Below, piece after piece: positions 15,285 through 63,502 of a DNA stretch of 64,000 nucleotides. A program made the translations under genes and the position numbers. The notes under the pieces are model-generated. The model was given only the letters and a program-made list of their open reading frames with translations. It did not search any database and was not told where the DNA came from. The first letter of the stretch is position 1. Every line of letters starts with the position of its first letter. Source of the stretch: Thermoproteota archaeon (lineage in GTDB: Archaea; Korarchaeota; JAOZGF01; JAOZFZ01); the NCBI GenBank assembly GCA_027492035.1, contig JAOZFT010000004.1:124001-188000 (forward strand). The letters run 5' to 3'.

Positions 15285-15409
15285 TGGGCCCGGCGGGATT
15301 TGAACCCGCGACCCTCGGGTTGCTCCTCCAAAGGGGAGTACTTCTTTGGGATTAAGAGCCCGGTGCTTTAGGCAAATGAGAGGTTTCTACCTTGCTGAGC
15401 TACGGGCCC
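15285..15409 (-). tRNA. tRNA-Lys(CUU) with two introns
   Basis: The acceptor stem GGGCCCG pairs with CGGGCCC, the T arm GCGGG-TTCAAAT-CCCGC is perfect, and anticodon CTT is at 15356-15354. Canonical intron after position 37 spans about 15352-15321 (32 nt) and folds internally through CCAAAG/CTTTGG. A second insert of about 19 nt (near 15386-15368) interrupts the D stem between GGTAG and GC. Removing both restores GCTC/GAGC and a normal D loop. Position 27-43 is then C-A, a mismatch. Discriminator base A; CCA is not encoded. Intron edges are inferred from the restored fold. Confidence 0.9.
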
Positions 15410-22367: not shown

Positions 22368-22454
22368 GGGCCCGTGGCCTAACATGGATAAGGCGTCGGC
22401 CTGCGGTTTTTAGAAGAAAGCCGGAGGATGCGGGTTCAAATCCCGCCGGGCCCG
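22368..22454 (+). tRNA. tRNA-Arg(GCG) with a 12-nt intron, followed by a T tract
   Basis: Acceptor GGGCCCG/CGGGCCC and T arm GCGGG-TTCAAAT-CCCGC are perfect; D stem GCCT/AGGC. Anticodon GCG is at 22403-22405. A 12-nt insert (22407-22418) follows position 37 and is close to the smallest archaeal introns. Removing it restores the TCGGC/GCCGG stem. A run of six T residues (22455-22460) follows at once and probably terminates transcription. CCA is not encoded. Confidence 0.93.
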
Positions 22455-26501: not shown

Positions 26502-26592
26502 TGGGCCGGGTGGGATTCGAACCCACGACCTCCGCCTTTTTCCAAGGAACAAAACGTGAAGGCGACGTCATAACCATCTAGACCACCGGCCC
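26502..26592 (-). tRNA. tRNA-Val(CAC) with a 17-nt intron
   Basis: Acceptor GGGCCGG/CCGGCCC and T arm GTGGG-TTCGAAT-CCCAC are perfect. Anticodon CAC is complementary to 26556-26558. A 17-nt intron (26554-26538) lies at the canonical place after position 37; its removal gives the CGCC/GGCG stem. D loop AGATGGTTAT is normal, with no D-arm insert, unlike tRNA-Lys and tRNA-Pro here. CCA is not encoded. Confidence 0.93.
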
Positions 26593-45583: not shown

Positions 45584-46987
45584 ATGTCTGTTTGCCCAAT
45601 TGACACCGGAAGATATGGAAGAGAACCCTTAAAGAAAATTTTTACTGAAGAGGGACGTATAGAAAGGCTGCTAAAAGTTGAAGCCACCATAGCCAAAACA
45701 CATGCTGAAATAGGAATCATACCTAAGGAAGCAGCACAAGAGATAGAGAAGAAGGCTTCCTTAAAATATGTAAAAATAGAGAGGATAAAGGAGATAGAAA
45801 AAGAAATACACCATGAAACAATGGCGATGGTTCTTGCGTTAGCGGAACAATGTGGGAAATATGGGGGATACGTGCATTTAGGTTTAACAAGTAGTGATGC
45901 TTTAGATACTGCACTAGCAATCCAAATAAAGGATGCATTAAAAATAATTGAAGGCAAGCTAGAGAAATTGATTCTTAAACTAGTGGAGAAAGCTTTAAAG
46001 TATAAAAGTTTACCTATGATCGGAAGAACCCATGGACAGCATGCAATACCTATAACTCTCGGTTTTAAATTTGCCCTGTTCGCTTCAGAGTTTCATAGAC
46101 ATTATGAAAGATTACAAGAAATAAAATCTCGAATTTTAGTTGGGAAAATCTCCGGTGCAACAGGTACGTTTGCAGCTTTGGGTAAAAAGGGCATCTTGAT
46201 ACAAAAGAGAACGTTAGAGAAATTGGGGCTGGGTGAACCCTTAATTACGACACAAATAATACAGAGAGATAGACATGCTGAACTAATTTTTCTGCTTGCA
46301 TTAATAGGTACTTCTTTAGATAAGTTAGCAACAGAGATAAGGAACTTACAAAGGACAGAGATAAGTGAAGTCTCTGAGCCATTCAATAAACAGCAGATAG
46401 GTTCCAGCACAATGCCTCAGAAAAGAAACCCTACGAAATCAGAGAGAATAACAAGTTTATCCCGACTTTTAAGATCAATGGTTTACCCAAGTCTAGAAAA
46501 TATTGTCACGTGGCATGAAAGAGACCTAACCAACTCAGCAAATGAAAGATTTACAGTGCCTGAGTCATTTATTTTGCTAGACGAGATGTTGACTGAGATG
46601 ATTGAAATAATAGAGAAAATCAAGGTTAACAAAGAAAAAATAAAGGAAAATCTTCACTTAACAAAAGGGTTAGTGATGTCGGAAAGAATAATGATGGCAT
46701 TAACCAAAAAGGGGATGGGTAGACAGGAGGCCCACCAAACGTTGCGAAAAATAGCACTCAAATCGGTAAATGAAAACAAAGAATTCAGAATTACTCTTCT
46801 CCAAGACAAAGAAATAAAGAAGAAATTAACCAGGAAAGAAATAGATGAACTTTTGAACCCTGAAACTTACACAGGTTTAGCAGAGAAAGTAATTGAAAGG
46901 ACAATTCAGGCAATAAACAACTCGTTAAACAAAAAAAGAGGGGAGGGGTTGGGAGAAGCTGATGCTATTCTTTTTAAACGCCTCTAA
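45584..46987 (+). CDS. purB: Adenylosuccinate lyase
   Basis: A 467-residue fumarase-superfamily enzyme acting twice in purine synthesis (SAICAR and adenylosuccinate cleavage). Signatures: MSVCPIDTGRYG start, MIGRTHGQHA (catalytic His region), and the signature loop GSSTMPQKRNPTKSE (about 273-287). Start ATG 45584 has only weak upstream GGTAGC. It converges with the histone gene, overlapping its end by 14 bases. Confidence 0.95.
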   Translation: MSVCPIDTGRYGREPLKKIFTEEGRIERLLKVEATIAKTHAEIGIIPKEAAQEIEKKASLKYVKIERIKEIEKEIHHETMAMVLALAEQCGKYGGYVHLGLTSSDALDTALAIQIKDALKIIEGKLEKLILKLVEKALKYKSLPMIGRTHGQHAIPITLGFKFALFASEFHRHYERLQEIKSRILVGKISGATGTFAALGKKGILIQKRTLEKLGLGEPLITTQIIQRDRHAELIFLLALIGTSLDKLATEIRNLQRTEISEVSEPFNKQQIGSSTMPQKRNPTKSERITSLSRLLRSMVYPSLENIVTWHERDLTNSANERFTVPESFILLDEMLTEMIEIIEKIKVNKEKIKENLHLTKGLVMSERIMMALTKKGMGRQEAHQTLRKIALKSVNENKEFRITLLQDKEIKKKLTRKEIDELLNPETYTGLAEKVIERTIQAINNSLNKKRGEGLGEADAILFKRL

Positions 46988-47180
46988 CAGCCAATTTAAC
47001 GTCTTCTTCGAGAACTGTTTTCCTACCTGCATGTTTAGCGAAGTCTGCAGCTCTCCGGCTGAGTTTTTCGGCGTAATTTTCAACCACGTCCCTTAACACT
47101 AACCTTGCATTCTCACTTACTCTGACCGCACCGGCTTTCCTCATAATTTTATCCAAAGGAGCTAATGGTAATTCAGCCAT
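46974..47180 (-). CDS. Archaeal histone
   Basis: A 68-residue histone-fold protein without tails. LPLAPLDKIMRKAGAVRVS, the central long helix (ARLVLRDVVENYAEKLS), and the C-terminal RKTVLEEDVKLAV are the canonical histone fold. Arg and Lys contacts for DNA (R14-like KAGA, GRKTV) are present. TATA-like AATATAAATTTG lies 25-40 bases upstream of the ATG on the minus strand. It shows that this lineage wraps its DNA with histones. Confidence 0.97.
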   Translation of the reverse strand: MAELPLAPLDKIMRKAGAVRVSENARLVLRDVVENYAEKLSRRAADFAKHAGRKTVLEEDVKLAVRGV

Positions 47181-56221: not shown

Positions 56222-57274
56222 ATGTTGGAAATAGATGGTTCATTTCTTGAAGGTGGAGGTCAGATATTAAGGACAGCGATAGCTCTTTCAGCTGTGTTGA
56301 ACAAAGATGTAAAGGTTGTGAATATAAGGTCGAAAAGAAAGAAACCTGGCCTTAAACCTCAGCATTTCGCTTCAGTAAACATGGTTGCTAAGTTAACTGG
56401 AGCAGAAGTTGAGGGGTTAAGAATAGGTTCCAAAGAAATAGTGTTTAAACCTAAGACAATAAAGGGCGGGAGTTTCATAATGGACATAGGCACAGCTGGC
56501 AGTGTTACTTTAGTTCTGCAAACTCTTCTTCCTTTCATAATTTATGCACCCACAAAACTTAATTTAGTCATAAGGGGAGGAACAAATGTGGCTTTCTCCC
56601 CTCAAGTAGATTACTTCATAAACGTGTTTACCCGTTGGGCCAAAAGTATAGGAGTGGAAATGGAGCTAGAGTTAGTTAAAAGAGGAACATACCCAAAGGG
56701 GGGAGGAGTGGTTAAAGTTTCTGTTAAACCATTAAAAACAATTCAGGGATTCTCTTTCCTGGAGAGAGGGGAAGTGAAAAAAATAAAAGGGATTTCTTGG
56801 TGTGAAAACTTACCGTTACACGTATGCAAGAGACAAAAAGAATCAGCTGAAAAATTACTTTACCAAGCCGGATATGAAGATGTAGAAATTGCAGTTCAAG
56901 CTGGAAAGATGAGTAGAAGCCCAGGAAGCGGGGTAGTGGTGTGGGCTGAAACAACAAACAAAGCCTTCATTGGGGCTGATTCCCTTGGAGAAAGAGGTAA
57001 ACCTGCAGAGAAAGTTGGTAGAGAAGCAGCTAATAAACTTTTGACAGAGTTAACATTGAAAGCACCCCTAGATAAACATATGGGAGACCAAGTTATTCCC
57101 TTTATGGGTTTAGCTCAAGGAACATCTCAAGTTAAAGTTACAGAGATAACTCGCCACACTAAAACAAATATTTTCGTTACAGAAAAAATTTTGAAAGTGA
57201 ATTTTGAGGTGGAAGATGATAAACCAGGGTTGATAAGGGTTAAGGGCATGGGTGCACAAAACAAATTTATTTAG
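56222..57274 (+). CDS. rtcA: RNA 3'-terminal phosphate cyclase
   Basis: A 350-residue RtcA that converts 3'-phosphates into 2',3'-cyclic phosphates using ATP and a His-AMP intermediate. EIDGSFLEGGGQILRTAIAL is the N-terminal signature; RGGTNVAFSPQVDY and the catalytic-His segment HMGDQVIPFMGLA (about 299-311) follow. The frame opens at 56072, but ATG 56222 with GGGGTTACTT before it matches family N-termini. It is convergent with the surface-protein gene (four-base overlap). Confidence 0.95.
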   Translation: MLEIDGSFLEGGGQILRTAIALSAVLNKDVKVVNIRSKRKKPGLKPQHFASVNMVAKLTGAEVEGLRIGSKEIVFKPKTIKGGSFIMDIGTAGSVTLVLQTLLPFIIYAPTKLNLVIRGGTNVAFSPQVDYFINVFTRWAKSIGVEMELELVKRGTYPKGGGVVKVSVKPLKTIQGFSFLERGEVKKIKGISWCENLPLHVCKRQKESAEKLLYQAGYEDVEIAVQAGKMSRSPGSGVVVWAETTNKAFIGADSLGERGKPAEKVGREAANKLLTELTLKAPLDKHMGDQVIPFMGLAQGTSQVKVTEITRHTKTNIFVTEKILKVNFEVEDDKPGLIRVKGMGAQNKFI

Positions 57275-59430
57275 ATTTTTCTGCGCCCAATAAATACCAA
57301 CAAAGCTAGAATCAACACATCCAACCCTACTAAAGCTGCAATAACCAAATCTCTACTTTCTAGACCGAGTAGAGGAAATATGGTAAAAGTTGGTGGAACA
57401 AGAATTTTTACAGTTGCAGAATCCAAGACTAACCCCTGATTGCTTAATTGCGCATTTAATGCTTGATAACCTTCTTTTTCAGGAATAACGGAGAATAGGT
57501 AAGTCGCTTGTTCCCCTGGCTCTATTTCAATATCCCTTTGGTGAGGGTTAATTGAGAAATTAACTGATTCTAATGTCACAGTAAAAGAGGATTTAGTTTC
57601 ACCAGTATTTCTTACTGTTAAGTTAATTATGCCTGGGCTATTTAGTTTGAGGGTTTGGGGGGAATTTATTTTGACAAATTCAGCTTTCGCTTCATAAACT
57701 AAAATTTTTGCTTCTTTCCTGGTCTGTTGACCTAAATAACTAAGTACTATGGACAATTTTTTTTCACCTCCTCCTTTTGGTCTAATGTGGAAAGATAGAG
57801 CTGTTGCTTCATCAGGTTTCAAAGTTGCTTTTTTTTGGTTAGGGGTTATTTCAAAATCAGGTGATGACAATGAAACGTTAAACTCGGTTTCGATGCCTCC
57901 ATCGTTAGTTACTACCACGGTTACTTTTCCTTCTGAACCCAATGACATTTCGGAGGGTAGTTCTGAAATAGTGAAGTAGCCGTGAGCAGAAAGTACATCG
58001 ATCTCCACTGTTTGCGTTGTGGTTTTATCGCCATAAGTTAGGGTAAATTGCACCGTTTTATGTCCTTCTTTTAAAGGTGTTAACTTAAGGTAAATGGTTT
58101 TTTTGCCTTTAGGTGGGATAGAGTAGGTTTCGGTGCTTATAGAACTATTGAAATCTGCAGCTGAAACTTTTAGTAGAAAATTGCCGGATGTTTCACTTGG
58201 ATTTTCAATTTCAATGCCGATTTGGTAACTTTTCCCTTTAATCATTTCTTTGGGGTAATCTATGACGTTCAAGTTTCCTTGGAGAGAATATTCTACTTCC
58301 AAAGTGATTTGTAAGTAATTTACATAACTGTTACCTAATTCATCGTAATAACTAACCCTGATCTGTATCAAGTGGTAGCCTGTTTCAACAGCTTTTAAAT
58401 GAAATGCAACTGACTCTTTGTCTCCTGGATCTAAATTAACTATTTTTGCTATAGGGTAAGGTGCTTCAAAACCTGGTGCAGCAGTAATTTCTAAGTAGAG
58501 ATTTTTAGCAGTAGATTCTCCATCGTTGGTTAGAGTTACATAGAGATTAAAGTCTTCACCGTATTTCACAGTTGAAGGGAAACTATACCAAAGACTAATT
58601 GGCCCCGGCTTAAGCGATTTCACATTAACAGTAACTGTTTCTGTATCTATCAATCTCGAGTAGCTGTACAGCTTAAAGGTGATGGGTATACTGCCCGTCA
58701 CAGTGGGTGTGACGGAAAAACTAAGTGTTGTATCTGAGTATGGAGGTAAAGAAATTGTTTGGGAGGGAGTAGATGTCGTGAACCCGTTTCCTGAAAAATA
58801 CACTGTGAACACTTTTGAAAAATACATTAAATTCCTTACATTAACTTCAACTGTGTATCCTTTGTTAACCCACATTGGAGATGGAGCATTAATGATCGTT
58901 AATTCACCTTCTTCCAAGTAATAGTTATGATAATAAAATTGTAATTCTTGGTATCCTATTAAGTGAGAGCTTGAATCCTTTAAAGTGACATTCCAGAGAT
59001 AGTAACCTTCAGAGTCGTGGCTTCCAGGGATGAAGGGGCCTATTCTGTAGGAGCCTGAGTTTGGTAAACTAATTTCCGATATGAGGGAGTAGGTGGAGGG
59101 AGGGTAAGGGTAGTTTTCTAGTATAGAGAGATAAGTGTTTGAGTGGTTAGTGGCCACGAACAACCAAACTTCATCTCCTTCATAGAAGGAGGTAGTAATT
59201 TGTCCATAACTATTTTCTAACCAGCAAGTTAAGTTAGAGTTATAATGAAAAGGACTTACATAAATTACCTGAAGGTGAGGGGAATAAAACTTACTGTTAG
59301 CGTCGGGTCTCGTTGAAATACCGTAAGCTTGTGGAACAAAAAGGGAGGTGCCGGAAAAAAGGAAAACAAAAATTAAAGATGTAACGGCGGTTTTAATTGC
59401 AGAACGTTCCTTAAAATGTTTTTCGTCCAT
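57271..59430 (-). CDS. Large secreted surface protein with tandem Ig-like (CARDB-like) domains and C-terminal anchor
   Basis: A 719-residue surface protein. An N-terminal signal peptide (basic start, hydrophobic core about 17-33, AYG) is followed by about five beta-sandwich repeats of some 90-100 residues each (for example LNSPGIINLTVRNTGETKS, MSLGSEGKVTVVVTNDGG, VKYGEDFNLYVTLTNDGES), like CARDB/NEW3 domains, rich in potential N-glycosylation sites. A C-terminal helix (about 694-714) then GRRKI anchors it. ATG 59430 has GGAGGGAGGAAT just upstream; the frame extends to 59460. An adhesin or S-layer-associated protein is likely. It diverges from crenactin. Confidence 0.75.
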   Translation of the reverse strand: MDEKHFKERSAIKTAVTSLIFVFLFSGTSLFVPQAYGISTRPDANSKFYSPHLQVIYVSPFHYNSNLTCWLENSYGQITTSFYEGDEVWLFVATNHSNTYLSILENYPYPPSTYSLISEISLPNSGSYRIGPFIPGSHDSEGYYLWNVTLKDSSSHLIGYQELQFYYHNYYLEEGELTIINAPSPMWVNKGYTVEVNVRNLMYFSKVFTVYFSGNGFTTSTPSQTISLPPYSDTTLSFSVTPTVTGSIPITFKLYSYSRLIDTETVTVNVKSLKPGPISLWYSFPSTVKYGEDFNLYVTLTNDGESTAKNLYLEITAAPGFEAPYPIAKIVNLDPGDKESVAFHLKAVETGYHLIQIRVSYYDELGNSYVNYLQITLEVEYSLQGNLNVIDYPKEMIKGKSYQIGIEIENPSETSGNFLLKVSAADFNSSISTETYSIPPKGKKTIYLKLTPLKEGHKTVQFTLTYGDKTTTQTVEIDVLSAHGYFTISELPSEMSLGSEGKVTVVVTNDGGIETEFNVSLSSPDFEITPNQKKATLKPDEATALSFHIRPKGGGEKKLSIVLSYLGQQTRKEAKILVYEAKAEFVKINSPQTLKLNSPGIINLTVRNTGETKSSFTVTLESVNFSINPHQRDIEIEPGEQATYLFSVIPEKEGYQALNAQLSNQGLVLDSATVKILVPPTFTIFPLLGLESRDLVIAALVGLDVLILALLVFIGRRKI

Positions 59431-59524
59431 ATTCCTCCCTCCCACGAAAAAAGCCTTCATGAAAATTTTTCACTTACATTAGTTTTTTATTTTAAAGCCT
59501 CAGAAAGAATATTAAATTTAATTC

Positions 59525-59539
59525 TTTTCCCCGGGAAAA
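59525..59539. repeat. 7-1-7 palindrome between surface protein and crenactin genes
   Basis: TTTTCCC, one C, GGGAAAA. The motif is centred in the 180-base divergent promoter region. The GC core stands out in AT-rich sequence. A shared operator for the surface protein and crenactin genes is possible; no factor is known. Confidence 0.45.
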
Positions 59540-59616
59540 AAATAAATGTTTTTTTAAGTTAAAAAGTTTGAAATGCTTTTTTGTAGATAGTTTCTTTTTA
59601 ATTGTAGGTGTTGTTA

Positions 59617-60897
59617 TTGAGCGTGAAGGATGCTTTTGTTTATGGAGAAGATTATGGCACATCAAAGTTTAAGTTTGGACCCGTTTTCCTCCATGAAAAA
59701 CCTGAAATGATAGATAATAGAGGATACTTCCCTTCACCTTCACAACTTTTACCTCATATGATGGAGGAAGAAGTAAAAGAAGTTGTTGTGGGAGAAGAGG
59801 TTCAGAAGTATCTGGAAACAATAGAAGATTTATCTACTAAGTTGATTTATCCAATGAGGAAGGGAGTAGTTAGAAAAGACGATAAAAAAGCTTGGAAAGT
59901 CATAAAAGAGATAACTAAATATGGATTGTTGAAGTTCTTCCCAAAAAGAATGAAAGAATTCAACGGATTCTATGTTGTCTCCTCGCTTGCCGCTCAATCA
60001 CCACGTTACATGTACGAAAGAATTTTTGAAGTGCATAAGGAAATAAATGAAGAAGAGAATGTACCCCTTGTAAATTCCATAACAATAATTCCTCAACCAT
60101 TGGCTGTAGCTATTTCACATAAGGCAGTTACTTGCACCGTAATAGAGAGTGGTCACGGGAACACCCAAATCACACCAGTTAGTAGAGGATTAATAAGAGG
60201 TGCAATAATAGCTTTGAACAGAGGCGGAAGCGATGCAAATGCAATTACTGCCCAAATCCTTAAAGATATTGGATATAGTGACTTAGCTAGGGAAGAAAAA
60301 TTTGTTACTTTATTTAAAGAGGAAGTAGGCTTACTTCCACTGGATTTGAATATGGCAATAGATAAAGCTAAAAGGAATCCTGAAAGATTTGGGGTTATTT
60401 TTAAAGTTCCAGGGACATCAATAGAGGTTGAACTGAAAGAGGATTCATGGCAGCGTTTCTTGATAGGGGAGTATATATTTAATCCTCAGCATGAAATTTT
60501 TGAATCATATTACCAAAGGGGGTTCACTAAGCCTAGGGATACTTATATAGCTGGTGAGGAAGTTATTCCTGGTTTAGCCTCTCTTTCTGAAGTAATAATA
60601 AAATCCGTTGAGAAATGCCCGACAGAGATTCAGCCTATGTTATACCGGGACATAATTCTTTCAGGTGGAAATTTCCTTTGGAGAGTGCCCCTAAGTATGG
60701 TAGATGTTGCCACGAATTCTCAAACCAAGATAAAGTTGATGTTAGAGGAAAAGGGAATTCCTGATGTAATAGTACGGGCTGCTGAAAATCCTCAATATAG
60801 TGTTTGGAGAGGGGCTATAGTTTATGGGTTATCCTTCCCAGAGGAGGTGGAGTGGAACTGGGAAAAAATGGAAGGCTGGCTTAAGTTAATAAACTAG
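59617..60897 (+). CDS. Crenactin (archaeal actin)
   Basis: An actin-superfamily ATPase of about 426 residues, closest to crenactin, which forms double-helical filaments in rod-shaped Thermoproteota. Phosphate-1 motif YGEDYGTSKFKFGP, connect-1 region RKGVVRKDDKKAWKV, phosphate-2 ESGHGNTQITPVSRG, adenosine motif ILSGGNFLWRVP and C-terminal QYSVWRGAIVYG. The frame opens at GTG 59608, but AGGTG is six bases before TTG 59617, which I prefer. It ends four bases inside the convergent Rad50/SMC-like gene. Probably builds a cell-shape or trafficking filament. Confidence 0.92.
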   Translation: MSVKDAFVYGEDYGTSKFKFGPVFLHEKPEMIDNRGYFPSPSQLLPHMMEEEVKEVVVGEEVQKYLETIEDLSTKLIYPMRKGVVRKDDKKAWKVIKEITKYGLLKFFPKRMKEFNGFYVVSSLAAQSPRYMYERIFEVHKEINEEENVPLVNSITIIPQPLAVAISHKAVTCTVIESGHGNTQITPVSRGLIRGAIIALNRGGSDANAITAQILKDIGYSDLAREEKFVTLFKEEVGLLPLDLNMAIDKAKRNPERFGVIFKVPGTSIEVELKEDSWQRFLIGEYIFNPQHEIFESYYQRGFTKPRDTYIAGEEVIPGLASLSEVIIKSVEKCPTEIQPMLYRDIILSGGNFLWRVPLSMVDVATNSQTKIKLMLEEKGIPDVIVRAAENPQYSVWRGAIVYGLSFPEEVEWNWEKMEGWLKLIN

Positions 60898-63332
60898 TTC
60901 TCTAATTCACTGACTGAACTGAAACCATTTATTTTCTTAATATGGAGGAGTTTACAGTTGACCCCTGCCTTTTTAGAGATTTTTAAAATTTTCCCTTTCA
61001 GAATATTATCTTGTGTTGCAACTAAAACTTGATGGAATACATTGCTTTTTAAAAGGGTTGAAAGGAAGACTTCCTTACATAGTTCATCTGTACCTGGTAA
61101 GGGGTCATCAAAAGCTATGAAACCTAAATTGTGGGGGCTTAAGGTGTATGAAGCAAGCAGGATAGACAGTGTTACTATTATTTTTTGACCGTCACTTAGT
61201 TTCAACGTAAATGGAACTACTTCTTTATCCCGAGTTTTCACAACTAAAAACCTATAGATGCTTCTCTTGCCCCTTTTGTCCTCTATTTCTTCTATTTTAA
61301 TAAGGATTTGAGAGAGGTCATTGTATGGGTAAATATGGTTGAAGAAACTATTTGCTGTTGTATTCAAGTTAGATACCACCTTCTTCCTCAATTCTGTTTG
61401 AATTGCGCGATAGCTTTCTCTGATAGAAATTAATTCGGTAAGAAATTCTGACAACCTTTTTTCTTTGTCTCTTAATTCTTTAAGTTTACCTTTGATTTTA
61501 ACGAGATGAGGTATGTTCTTTTGTAGCGTTAATATTTGTTTTCCTATGTTCCTTCTTTCATTTTTCAAAGAATTCAGTTGTTGAGTATTGAGGGAAAGCT
61601 CTTCAACTGTTTCCAAGTACTCTTCTTCATTAAAATTAAGCATTTCTATTCTTTTTTCAACTTCGCTCAAATTTGTTTCTATCTCAGAAAGTTTCTCCTT
61701 TAGCATTTCTATTTCCTTTATCTCCAGAGAGATAGTGTCTAACTTCCTTATTTTTTGTAGGCATATGTTTCTCGATTTTATTTTTTCGTTTATTTCATCC
61801 AGTTTCCTTTTTTCGTTTTCTACCCTAATTTCTAGCAATTTTTTGTCGTTAGTCAGTTTCTCCAGTTCTTGATTTACTTTTTTGAGGTTTAGAATGTCTA
61901 GACTTAATTTTTCAAGTCGATCTTTGGCGTCTGTAAGTTCAGTGTGGAGTTCATTGAGCTCAGAAAACCTAGCAGTTATTTTCATTATTTTCTTTTCATT
62001 TTCCCTTATTTTAGTGTTTAGTTTATCTATTTCTGACTTAGTTACTTTATGGCCGCAAACTAGGCATTCAGTTTCATTTGTTTTCTGTAACTCGTTTGTT
62101 AGAGTAGATAGTATCTTATTTACTGCCTTAACTTCTTTTTCTTTTACTTCCAGAGTTGAAAGTTCTTGCTCTATTTTCTTAATTCTTTTCTCTATTTCGG
62201 GGAGGGAACCATACTTCATTGATAATTTTTCAGCTTCCTTCCTTAGAGATTCAGCTATTACCCTTTTCTTGGTTAAGTTATCAATTTCTCCTCTCTTCTT
62301 TTCAGCTTCTAAAGTTAATTCTTTTATGTTCCTTTCCAGTAACATCTTTTCCTCTTCAAATTCCCTTATTTTTTTATGTATTACTTCCAGTTGAAAGGGC
62401 CCCGAAGAAAATGCGTTTTCATTTATTGGTGTTAAATTGATTTCATGAAACCCAGAACAAAGTTCTCTCGTTTCTTTTATCAAGTTATCTCTTTCAGAAA
62501 CTAAGTTTTCAATGTTTTTCCCACCCAAGTGTAGCAGAATTTCTTCTTTCCTGACTTCAAGGTTGGTTTTTTCCCTTATTAGACTAAAGTACTCTCCTTT
62601 ATCTTTTTCTATTTCTTCTTTCTTTTGCAGCAAAGTATTGCAAATTTTTTGCAGTTCCCTTTCTTCAGCCGCCAGCTCTTCTTCCTTTTTTAAGAGGTTT
62701 TTTAATGTTTCTTTCTTTCCGGGTAAAGATTTTACTTCTGGATAGGTAGTAACCAATTCGTTTATTTTTTGTTTAAGCTTTTCAAGTTCGTTCTTCACCG
62801 TTTTTACTGGAAAAGACTTGTAAAGGTTTTCTAATTCTGAAATCCCCATTAAGCGATCCATGATAATTGTCCGCTCAGAATCAGAACCGAAAATTAACGT
62901 TTGCAGCTCATGGTTCCTCACCAGCACATGTTTTGAGAATTCATCTGGAGTTATTTGAACTATGGCGCCTATCTTTTTCTCCACGTTTTTCTTGATTTCT
63001 TTACCTTTAAGAATTAATTTTGTCCTTAATGGGTTCCTTAATTTTTTTGTTCTAAGGATTTCAAGAACTGTTCCCTCCTCGCTAAAAAGTTCAAGTTCTA
63101 CATCCATTTCCGTAGAGCCACTGAGCATCAGGTCATCCACCTTCATTTCTCTTAGTTTCCTGGTTTCGTATGTATCCCCGAAAAGGGCAAATTCAATAGC
63201 GTCAAAAATAGTTGTTTTTCCTGCACCTGTTCTACCGTACAATAGAATTAAGCCAGGGCTGAGATTAATTACAGTTTTATTTTTAAAAGATTTAAAGTTC
63301 CCGATTGCTATTTTCTTTATGGTGTAAGCCAT
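60894..63332 (-). CDS. Rad50/SMC-like zinc-hook ATPase, candidate arcadin-4
   Basis: An 812-residue ABC-type coiled-coil ATPase. Walker A GRTGAGKTT (33-41), a Q-loop region VRNHELQ, coiled coils (about 175-400 and 440-680) around a zinc hook CLVC (423-426), and the C-terminal ATPase lobe. The signature reads LSDGQ (712-716), not LSGGE, and Walker B FDDP (741-744) has Asp where Rad50 has the catalytic Glu. No mre11, herA or nurA is adjacent. It converges with crenactin; Rad50/SMC-like arcadin-4 is part of the known crenactin cluster, so I prefer a cytoskeletal role but cannot exclude a DNA-repair Rad50. Confidence 0.75.
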   Translation of the reverse strand: MAYTIKKIAIGNFKSFKNKTVINLSPGLILLYGRTGAGKTTIFDAIEFALFGDTYETRKLREMKVDDLMLSGSTEMDVELELFSEEGTVLEILRTKKLRNPLRTKLILKGKEIKKNVEKKIGAIVQITPDEFSKHVLVRNHELQTLIFGSDSERTIIMDRLMGISELENLYKSFPVKTVKNELEKLKQKINELVTTYPEVKSLPGKKETLKNLLKKEEELAAEERELQKICNTLLQKKEEIEKDKGEYFSLIREKTNLEVRKEEILLHLGGKNIENLVSERDNLIKETRELCSGFHEINLTPINENAFSSGPFQLEVIHKKIREFEEEKMLLERNIKELTLEAEKKRGEIDNLTKKRVIAESLRKEAEKLSMKYGSLPEIEKRIKKIEQELSTLEVKEKEVKAVNKILSTLTNELQKTNETECLVCGHKVTKSEIDKLNTKIRENEKKIMKITARFSELNELHTELTDAKDRLEKLSLDILNLKKVNQELEKLTNDKKLLEIRVENEKRKLDEINEKIKSRNICLQKIRKLDTISLEIKEIEMLKEKLSEIETNLSEVEKRIEMLNFNEEEYLETVEELSLNTQQLNSLKNERRNIGKQILTLQKNIPHLVKIKGKLKELRDKEKRLSEFLTELISIRESYRAIQTELRKKVVSNLNTTANSFFNHIYPYNDLSQILIKIEEIEDKRGKRSIYRFLVVKTRDKEVVPFTLKLSDGQKIIVTLSILLASYTLSPHNLGFIAFDDPLPGTDELCKEVFLSTLLKSNVFHQVLVATQDNILKGKILKISKKAGVNCKLLHIKKINGFSSVSELEN

Positions 63333-63340
63333 GTAAACAC

Positions 63341-63502
63341 CTATTTTGAAAGCTTCGTTAATATTTCCTTTATTTCTTCCTCGACTCCACTAACTCCCTT
63401 ACGTAAGTAGATCTCGAAAAGTTTAAAAGCCAAGTCACGTGTATGCTTATTCTCCTTAAAATATTCGTTTAATAATTTTTTTACCTCCTCTTTTACACTC
63501 AT
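63341..63502 (-). CDS. 53-residue helical protein upstream of the Rad50/SMC-like gene
   Basis: ORF from ATG 63502 with AGGTAAG about eight bases upstream, ending eight bases before the ATPase start. The protein is all-helical and charged (EEVKKLLNEYFKEN, then DLAFKLFEIYLRKG, then VEEEIKEILTKL), with no Cys. Tight coupling suggests a partner of the ATPase or of crenactin. Small helical arcadins are known from crenactin clusters, but no sequence family is recognised here. A regulatory peptide is also possible. Confidence 0.6.
   Translation of the reverse strand: MSVKEEVKKLLNEYFKENKHTRDLAFKLFEIYLRKGVSGVEEEIKEILTKLSK

Follow-up and report, generated by a model that had tools for sequence, protein, structure and literature searches.

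The window analysed here, a stretch of DNA 64,000 nucleotides long, comes from the 1.87 Mb genome (93% complete) of a deep-branching, Korarchaeota-like archaeon. It contains a gene for crenactin, one of the prokaryotic proteins closely related to eukaryotic actin. The gene lies at 59617–60897 on the forward strand, exactly where the sequence-only reading had placed it. Its product matches the NCBIfam crenactin model with 588.7 bits (E = 6e-177) and the PDB crenactin 4cj7 with E = 2e-108. The score is below the NCBIfam equivalog cut-off of 630 bits, as are those of most Korarchaeota crenactins, and the protein groups with Korarchaeota crenactins in the tree (support 98/93). The TTG start at 59617 is consistent with the alignment of crenactin relatives; a GTG at 59608 is likewise open.

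Convergent with crenactin, and sharing a 4 bp overlap of the stop codons with it, is a gene on the reverse strand (60894–63332) for an 812-residue zinc-hook ABC ATPase. A second reverse-strand orf (63341–63502), encoding 53 residues, ends 8 bp ahead of the ATPase start, and the two genes form an operon. The sequence-only reading had described the partner of the ATPase as a tiny helical protein rather than Mre11, and indeed no mre11 is present at the locus or beside close orthologs of the ATPase gene. The search for a separate canonical pair, which that reading had called for, revealed a nurA-herA-mre11-rad50 cluster on another contig of the same genome (L011).

Several other features of the window were recorded. 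A histone gene (46974–47180, reverse strand, E = 2e-17) agrees with the description of the host as a histone-bearing archaeon. The gene at 57271–59460 on the reverse strand encodes a large secreted surface protein in which a set of Ig-like repeats, CARDB among them, is joined to a C-terminal membrane helix; it had been suggested to connect the filament with the envelope, but no homolog of it was found beside crenactin in the Korarchaeota relatives examined, and that role is not supported. Three tRNA genes were detected (15285–15409, 22368–22454, and 26502–26592), two of them found by Rfam and missed by ARAGORN; the first, with a length of 125 bases, probably contains an intron. In the genome at large, the SMC gene is split over two contig ends (G000:C4:1–1860 and G000:C8:2–259), so these contigs are probably neighbours.

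The 812-residue protein can be identified by profile, tree and signature as arcadin-4 itself, in line with the earlier assignment of this Rad50-like protein to the arcade system. It matches the NCBIfam Rkd4 (arcadin-4) profile with E = 8e-85, compared with 4e-35 for the best Rad50 model. Its score of 285 bits is comparable to those of full-length arcadin-4s in the order of L162 (250–355 bits), all of them under the cut-off of 860. In a maximum-likelihood tree that included 22 arcadin-4s (21 distinct), among them the window protein and those of two relatives, all 22 grouped in a single clade (support 100/100) that was separate from Rad50 and SMC. By contrast, the Rkd4 matches of about 100 bits in other Korarchaeota were rejected as arcadin-4s; those inspected were either Rad50, encoded beside mre11/herA, or SMC.

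The alignment shows the following motifs in the protein: Walker A (GRTGAGKT, residues 33–40, 63213–63236), a zinc-hook CxxC (CLVC, residues 423–426, 62055–62066), an ABC signature (LSDGQK, residues 712–717, 61182–61199), and Walker B (AFDDP, residues 740–744, 61101–61115), all on the reverse strand. Both hook cysteines are invariant in the alignment (A9). The ABC signature has the form LS[DSTE]GQ[KR], with L or M as the first letter, in all 22 aligned arcadin-4s; in the nine Rad50 and SMC proteins aligned it invariably contains SGGE, so that Gln replaces Glu in every arcadin-4. The catalytic Glu after Walker B is replaced by Asp in the window protein, as it is in one arcadin-4 of Thermoproteales (L285). 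The AF2 model (pLDDT 82) has Rad50 and SMC proteins as its best Foldseek matches and, together with the alignment, points to a long antiparallel coiled coil with a zinc hook as in Rad50. Arcadin-4 has already been described as a relative of Rad50 and SMC (PMC5173319), and its origin from Rad50 was proposed earlier with weak tree support (PMC9389158). The archaeal ASRP family (coalescin, Sph) likewise comprises SMC-superfamily ATPases with a zinc hook that are distinct from SMC and Rad50 (PMC9389158), but the window protein matches the ASRP profile with only 8e-22 as against 8e-85 for arcadin-4.

The 53-residue protein matched the curated arcadin-3 model weakly (E = 0.0027), and we therefore built a new profile from 17 Thermoproteia arcadin-3s, leaving out the window protein and its nearest relative. 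This profile found the window orf with E = 3.4e-13 and a 69-residue orf of the relative with 1.5e-8, the next orf being at 0.67. Since the profile is independent of the window protein, we assign the latter to a known arcadin, as a diverged arcadin-3, and not to a new one, as the sequence-only reading had supposed. A homolog at the same place in the relative, together with the conserved gene pairing, shows that the orf is not a chance one: arcadin-3 directly precedes arcadin-4 on the same strand in 48 of the 49 cases checked, with gaps of −98 to +8 bp and mostly overlapping. The single exception (L271) has no arcadin-4 within reach. In the AF2 model (pLDDT 96) the protein consists of two helices, at residues 3–14 and 19–52; at 53 residues it has no room for a metallophosphatase nuclease or a capping domain.

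The Arcade cluster itself is already known, and the locus is a variant of it. In Thermoproteia (L283–L285, Pyrobaculum-type) crenactin, arcadin-3 and arcadin-4 also occur together, with arcadin-3 abutting arcadin-4, but there the genes are co-directional in the order arcadin-1, crenactin, arcadin-2, arcadin-3, arcadin-4, whereas in the window crenactin is convergent with the arcadin-3/4 pair. The arcade proteins of the window all score below the NCBIfam equivalog cut-offs. Thus, the proposal of a divergent arcade system holds for the sequences, and the gene arrangement is altered as well.

The window genome also differs from the Thermoproteia cluster in that its arcadin-2 is unlinked and arcadin-1 was not detected. 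No arcadin-2 is present at the crenactin locus, and a genome search with NCBIfam NF053561 gave none either; a wider profile, built from nine arcadin-2s, revealed one of 272 residues elsewhere (C9:403227–404045, i.e., L210:3227–4045, reverse strand; E = 1.5e-16). This protein ends in IPDFAQSNPWMEILKKKKNET, with the C-terminal motif SNPWMEIL, and the same element, which in Pyrobaculum binds the crenactin groove (PMC5173319), ends 300-residue proteins in other Korarchaeota. Unlinked arcadin-2-like proteins of Korarchaeota with an SNPW or NNPW C-terminal motif are also encoded at L214:2883–3821 and L211:3038–3874, and in a K. cryptofilum-like genome such a gene lies between rps11 and rpoD, in a ribosomal/RNA polymerase operon. 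The arcadin-1 profile (small family A4), which matches PDB arcadin-1 5ly5 at 9e-45, gave no match in the window assembly (93% complete), a weak one in G001 and a strong one in G002.

Crenactin was found in 28 of the 29 genomes of the phylum. Among Korarchaeota genomes, true arcadin-4 was found only in three of the window's order (the window genome, G001, and G002). In each it is convergent with crenactin, and this adjacency, seen in the synteny comparison of crenactin neighbours, has been kept although the proteins are only 27–30% identical. Most Korarchaeota thus keep crenactin without arcadin-3/4, which means that crenactin itself does not depend on the pair. Transfer of the pair from Thermoproteia into the window's order was considered and set aside: the arcadin-4 and crenactin trees split Thermoproteia similarly, which makes it at least as likely that the pair was inherited together with crenactin and lost from sister lineages.

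To trace the relationships of arcadin-3, we compared its profile with orfs from several collections. Among 4,468 Korarchaeota orfs, the sole matches below the true arcadin-3s were five Mre11 proteins (E up to 0.5), in each case within the last 50 residues. Among 653 orfs from 30 Thermoproteia mre11 loci, the top 13 matches were all Mre11 (best E = 1e-6), within the last 50–60 residues or so. When 14,858 distinct orfs were ranked, 49 arcadin-3s were followed by 24 consecutive Mre11 C-termini before any other orf appeared. These counts are not independent events, given the kinship among the Mre11 sequences; the matching proteins do span Thermofilales, Thermoproteales and Korarchaeota. Reciprocally, a profile of 12 Mre11 C-termini had arcadin-3s as its first 12 matches outside Mre11. 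The arcadin-3 profile placed 24 Mre11 proteins among its top 25 orfs over 100 residues (best E = 2e-5); in 100 permutations of its alignment columns this number averaged 0.93 and reached at most 7, and the best E value of an Mre11 was 0.77. Alignment of the two profiles with hhalign gave P = 7e-6 and a probability of 84.6%, and against full-length Mre11 the profile-profile alignment fell at residues 353–379 of 393. When the window protein was compared with single Mre11 C-termini, the three best had shuffle p values between 0.0005 and 0.003. The Mre11 of M. jannaschii (3av0), crystallised together with Rad50, aligns at full length with the best-matching Mre11, and the match to arcadin-3 starts where this alignment stops. 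The Rad50 of P. furiosus has been solved with the helix-loop-helix motif of Mre11 (3QKU; PMC8824468). Taken together, the profiles indicate homology between arcadin-3 and the C-terminal Rad50-binding (helix-loop-helix) domain of archaeal Mre11. The operon partner of arcadin-4 would thus be, in a sense, a remnant of mre11.

It should be noted that this homology rests on profiles and gene order, since searches of PDB sequences and folds gave no match. The arcadin-3 profile found no Mre11 among PDB sequences up to E = 10, and Foldseek and VIA-align found nothing significant with the 53-residue model, although for a protein of two helices neither sequence nor fold searches of this kind have much power. 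Moreover, the second helix of the model is long and uninterrupted and the first one short, unlike a plain hairpin, which counts against the Mre11 reading.

One might suppose that the similarity arose convergently, between short amphipathic helices packing against coiled coils, in which case arcadin-3 would still bind arcadin-4. Both arcadin-3 and the Mre11 domain are helical and about 50 residues long, and the missing PDB match is compatible with this view, as is the fact that a reversed arcadin-3 profile still places five Mre11 proteins in its top 25. However, the best E value of the reversed profile is 0.1, whereas the real profile has Mre11 as 24 of its top 25 orfs over 100 residues, with a best E value of 2e-5. 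The match also extends over most of the Mre11 domain and takes in its Leu-Ala, Ile/Leu-Phe/Tyr and Gly positions, and the gene order mre11-rad50 is mirrored by arcadin-3-arcadin-4. We therefore regard convergence as unlikely.

If the homology is accepted, arcadin-3 might nevertheless act in trans, competing with Mre11 for the canonical Rad50 and so restraining repair, while arcadin-4 works alone. A canonical mre11-rad50 pair is available in the genome, and arcadin-3 consists of the binding domain only. Against this, there is a genetic tie between arcadin-3 and arcadin-4, whose genes overlap or almost overlap in 48 of 49 cases, and the divergence of arcadin-3 from Mre11 suggests co-evolution with arcadin-4, which leaves competition in trans little credence. 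A further reading, which we consider very improbable, takes the 812-residue protein for another DNA-repair Rad50, or for an SMC-like chromosome protein, that lies beside crenactin by chance, with a small orf unrelated to Mre11 that is perhaps its own small subunit. The protein does keep the Rad50 fold with the zinc hook, and Rad50 profiles match it too, but the arcadin-4 profile is ahead of these by 50 orders of magnitude, the protein belongs to the arcadin-4 clade and not to that of Rad50, it lacks the SGGE signature and an adjoining mre11, and its convergent adjacency to crenactin is kept in three genomes despite the low protein identity. The presence of a canonical mre11-rad50 pair elsewhere in the genome also argues against a repair function.

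We consider it probable that the locus is a rearranged Arcade module in which arcadin-3 and arcadin-4 form a nuclease-less clamp, similar to Mre11-Rad50, that is used with crenactin. Given the homology of arcadin-3 with the Rad50-binding domain of Mre11, the pair looks like an Mre11-Rad50 that has shed its nuclease and become part of an actin system. As in the nurA-herA-mre11-rad50 cluster, an ABC ATPase with a coiled coil and a zinc hook is preceded immediately by the gene for a partner with a putative Rad50-binding domain. The arcadin pair differs from Mre11-Rad50 in having no nuclease or capping domain, in LSDGQ instead of LSGGE, in its separate clade and in its crenactin neighbour.

It can be hypothesized that two arcadin-4 molecules would be linked by the zinc hook, with ATP sandwiched between the two heads. 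Arcadin-3 is predicted to sit on the base of each coiled coil, at the position of Mre11, where it may stabilise the arms or offer a docking surface. ATP binding and hydrolysis would open and close the clamp. Instead of passing DNA on to a nuclease, the clamp might then grip crenactin filaments, or hold the nucleoid or another partner to them, and so have an accessory role in cell shape or division. The action of arcadin-3/4 on crenactin filaments is our inference: published crenactin binding concerns arcadin-1 and arcadin-2 only (PMC5173319), and auxiliary roles of arcadin-1, -3 and -4 were suggested from immunostaining in Pyrobaculum (PMC9723716). That a stripped Mre11-Rad50 was recruited to the actin cytoskeleton, as the first known ATP clamp of the Rad50 type to work on an actin filament or by way of one, has in our judgement an even chance of being correct.

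The interest of the locus lies in the relationship between arcadin-3 and Mre11. In the open-licence PubMed Central literature we found no statement of this relationship, nor arcadin-3/4 in Korarchaeota-like archaea, nor the convergent arrangement with crenactin; arcadin-3 is mentioned in two of the 5.4 million open papers searched, where it is called "small" or given an auxiliary role. Viewing arcadin-3/4 as a nuclease-less Mre11-Rad50 would provide the first testable idea of how this part of the archaeal actin system works, would explain why the two genes constantly travel together, and predicts a binding site. It also supports the proposed origin of arcadin-4 from Rad50. The Korarchaeota-like order that keeps the pair with crenactin and the sister lineages with crenactin alone form a natural contrast for studying the role of the pair.

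Some further observations concern the neighbours of crenactin in other genomes. A family of 113–123 residues (A2) adjoins crenactin in Thermofilales and lies about 5–6 kb from it in Korarchaeum, with members at L192:1477–1818 (the end of G000:C4) and L050:4734–5102; it was rejected as arcadin-1, a PDB search having given no arcadin-1. A cyclophilin-like protein of about 125 residues is encoded beside crenactin in Thermofilales and Thermoproteales and beside arcadin-2 in the window's order (L210:2509–2883, forward strand; L212:3776–4180; L213:762–1130; E = 1e-16 to 1e-20), and is a candidate for an unrecognised arcade partner. Directly upstream of crenactin, several Thermofilales-like genomes contain a coiled-coil orf of 73–78 residues (L162:9761–9985; L096:3622–3852) with a weak CdvA-like match (E = 0.005). 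Among Thermoproteales, the crenactin of G066 (L282) lacks arcadin-2, -3 and -4 as neighbours, and in G076, G080, G081, and G084 crenactin is broken into several frames or has in-frame stops, which may reflect introns, decay or assembly errors.
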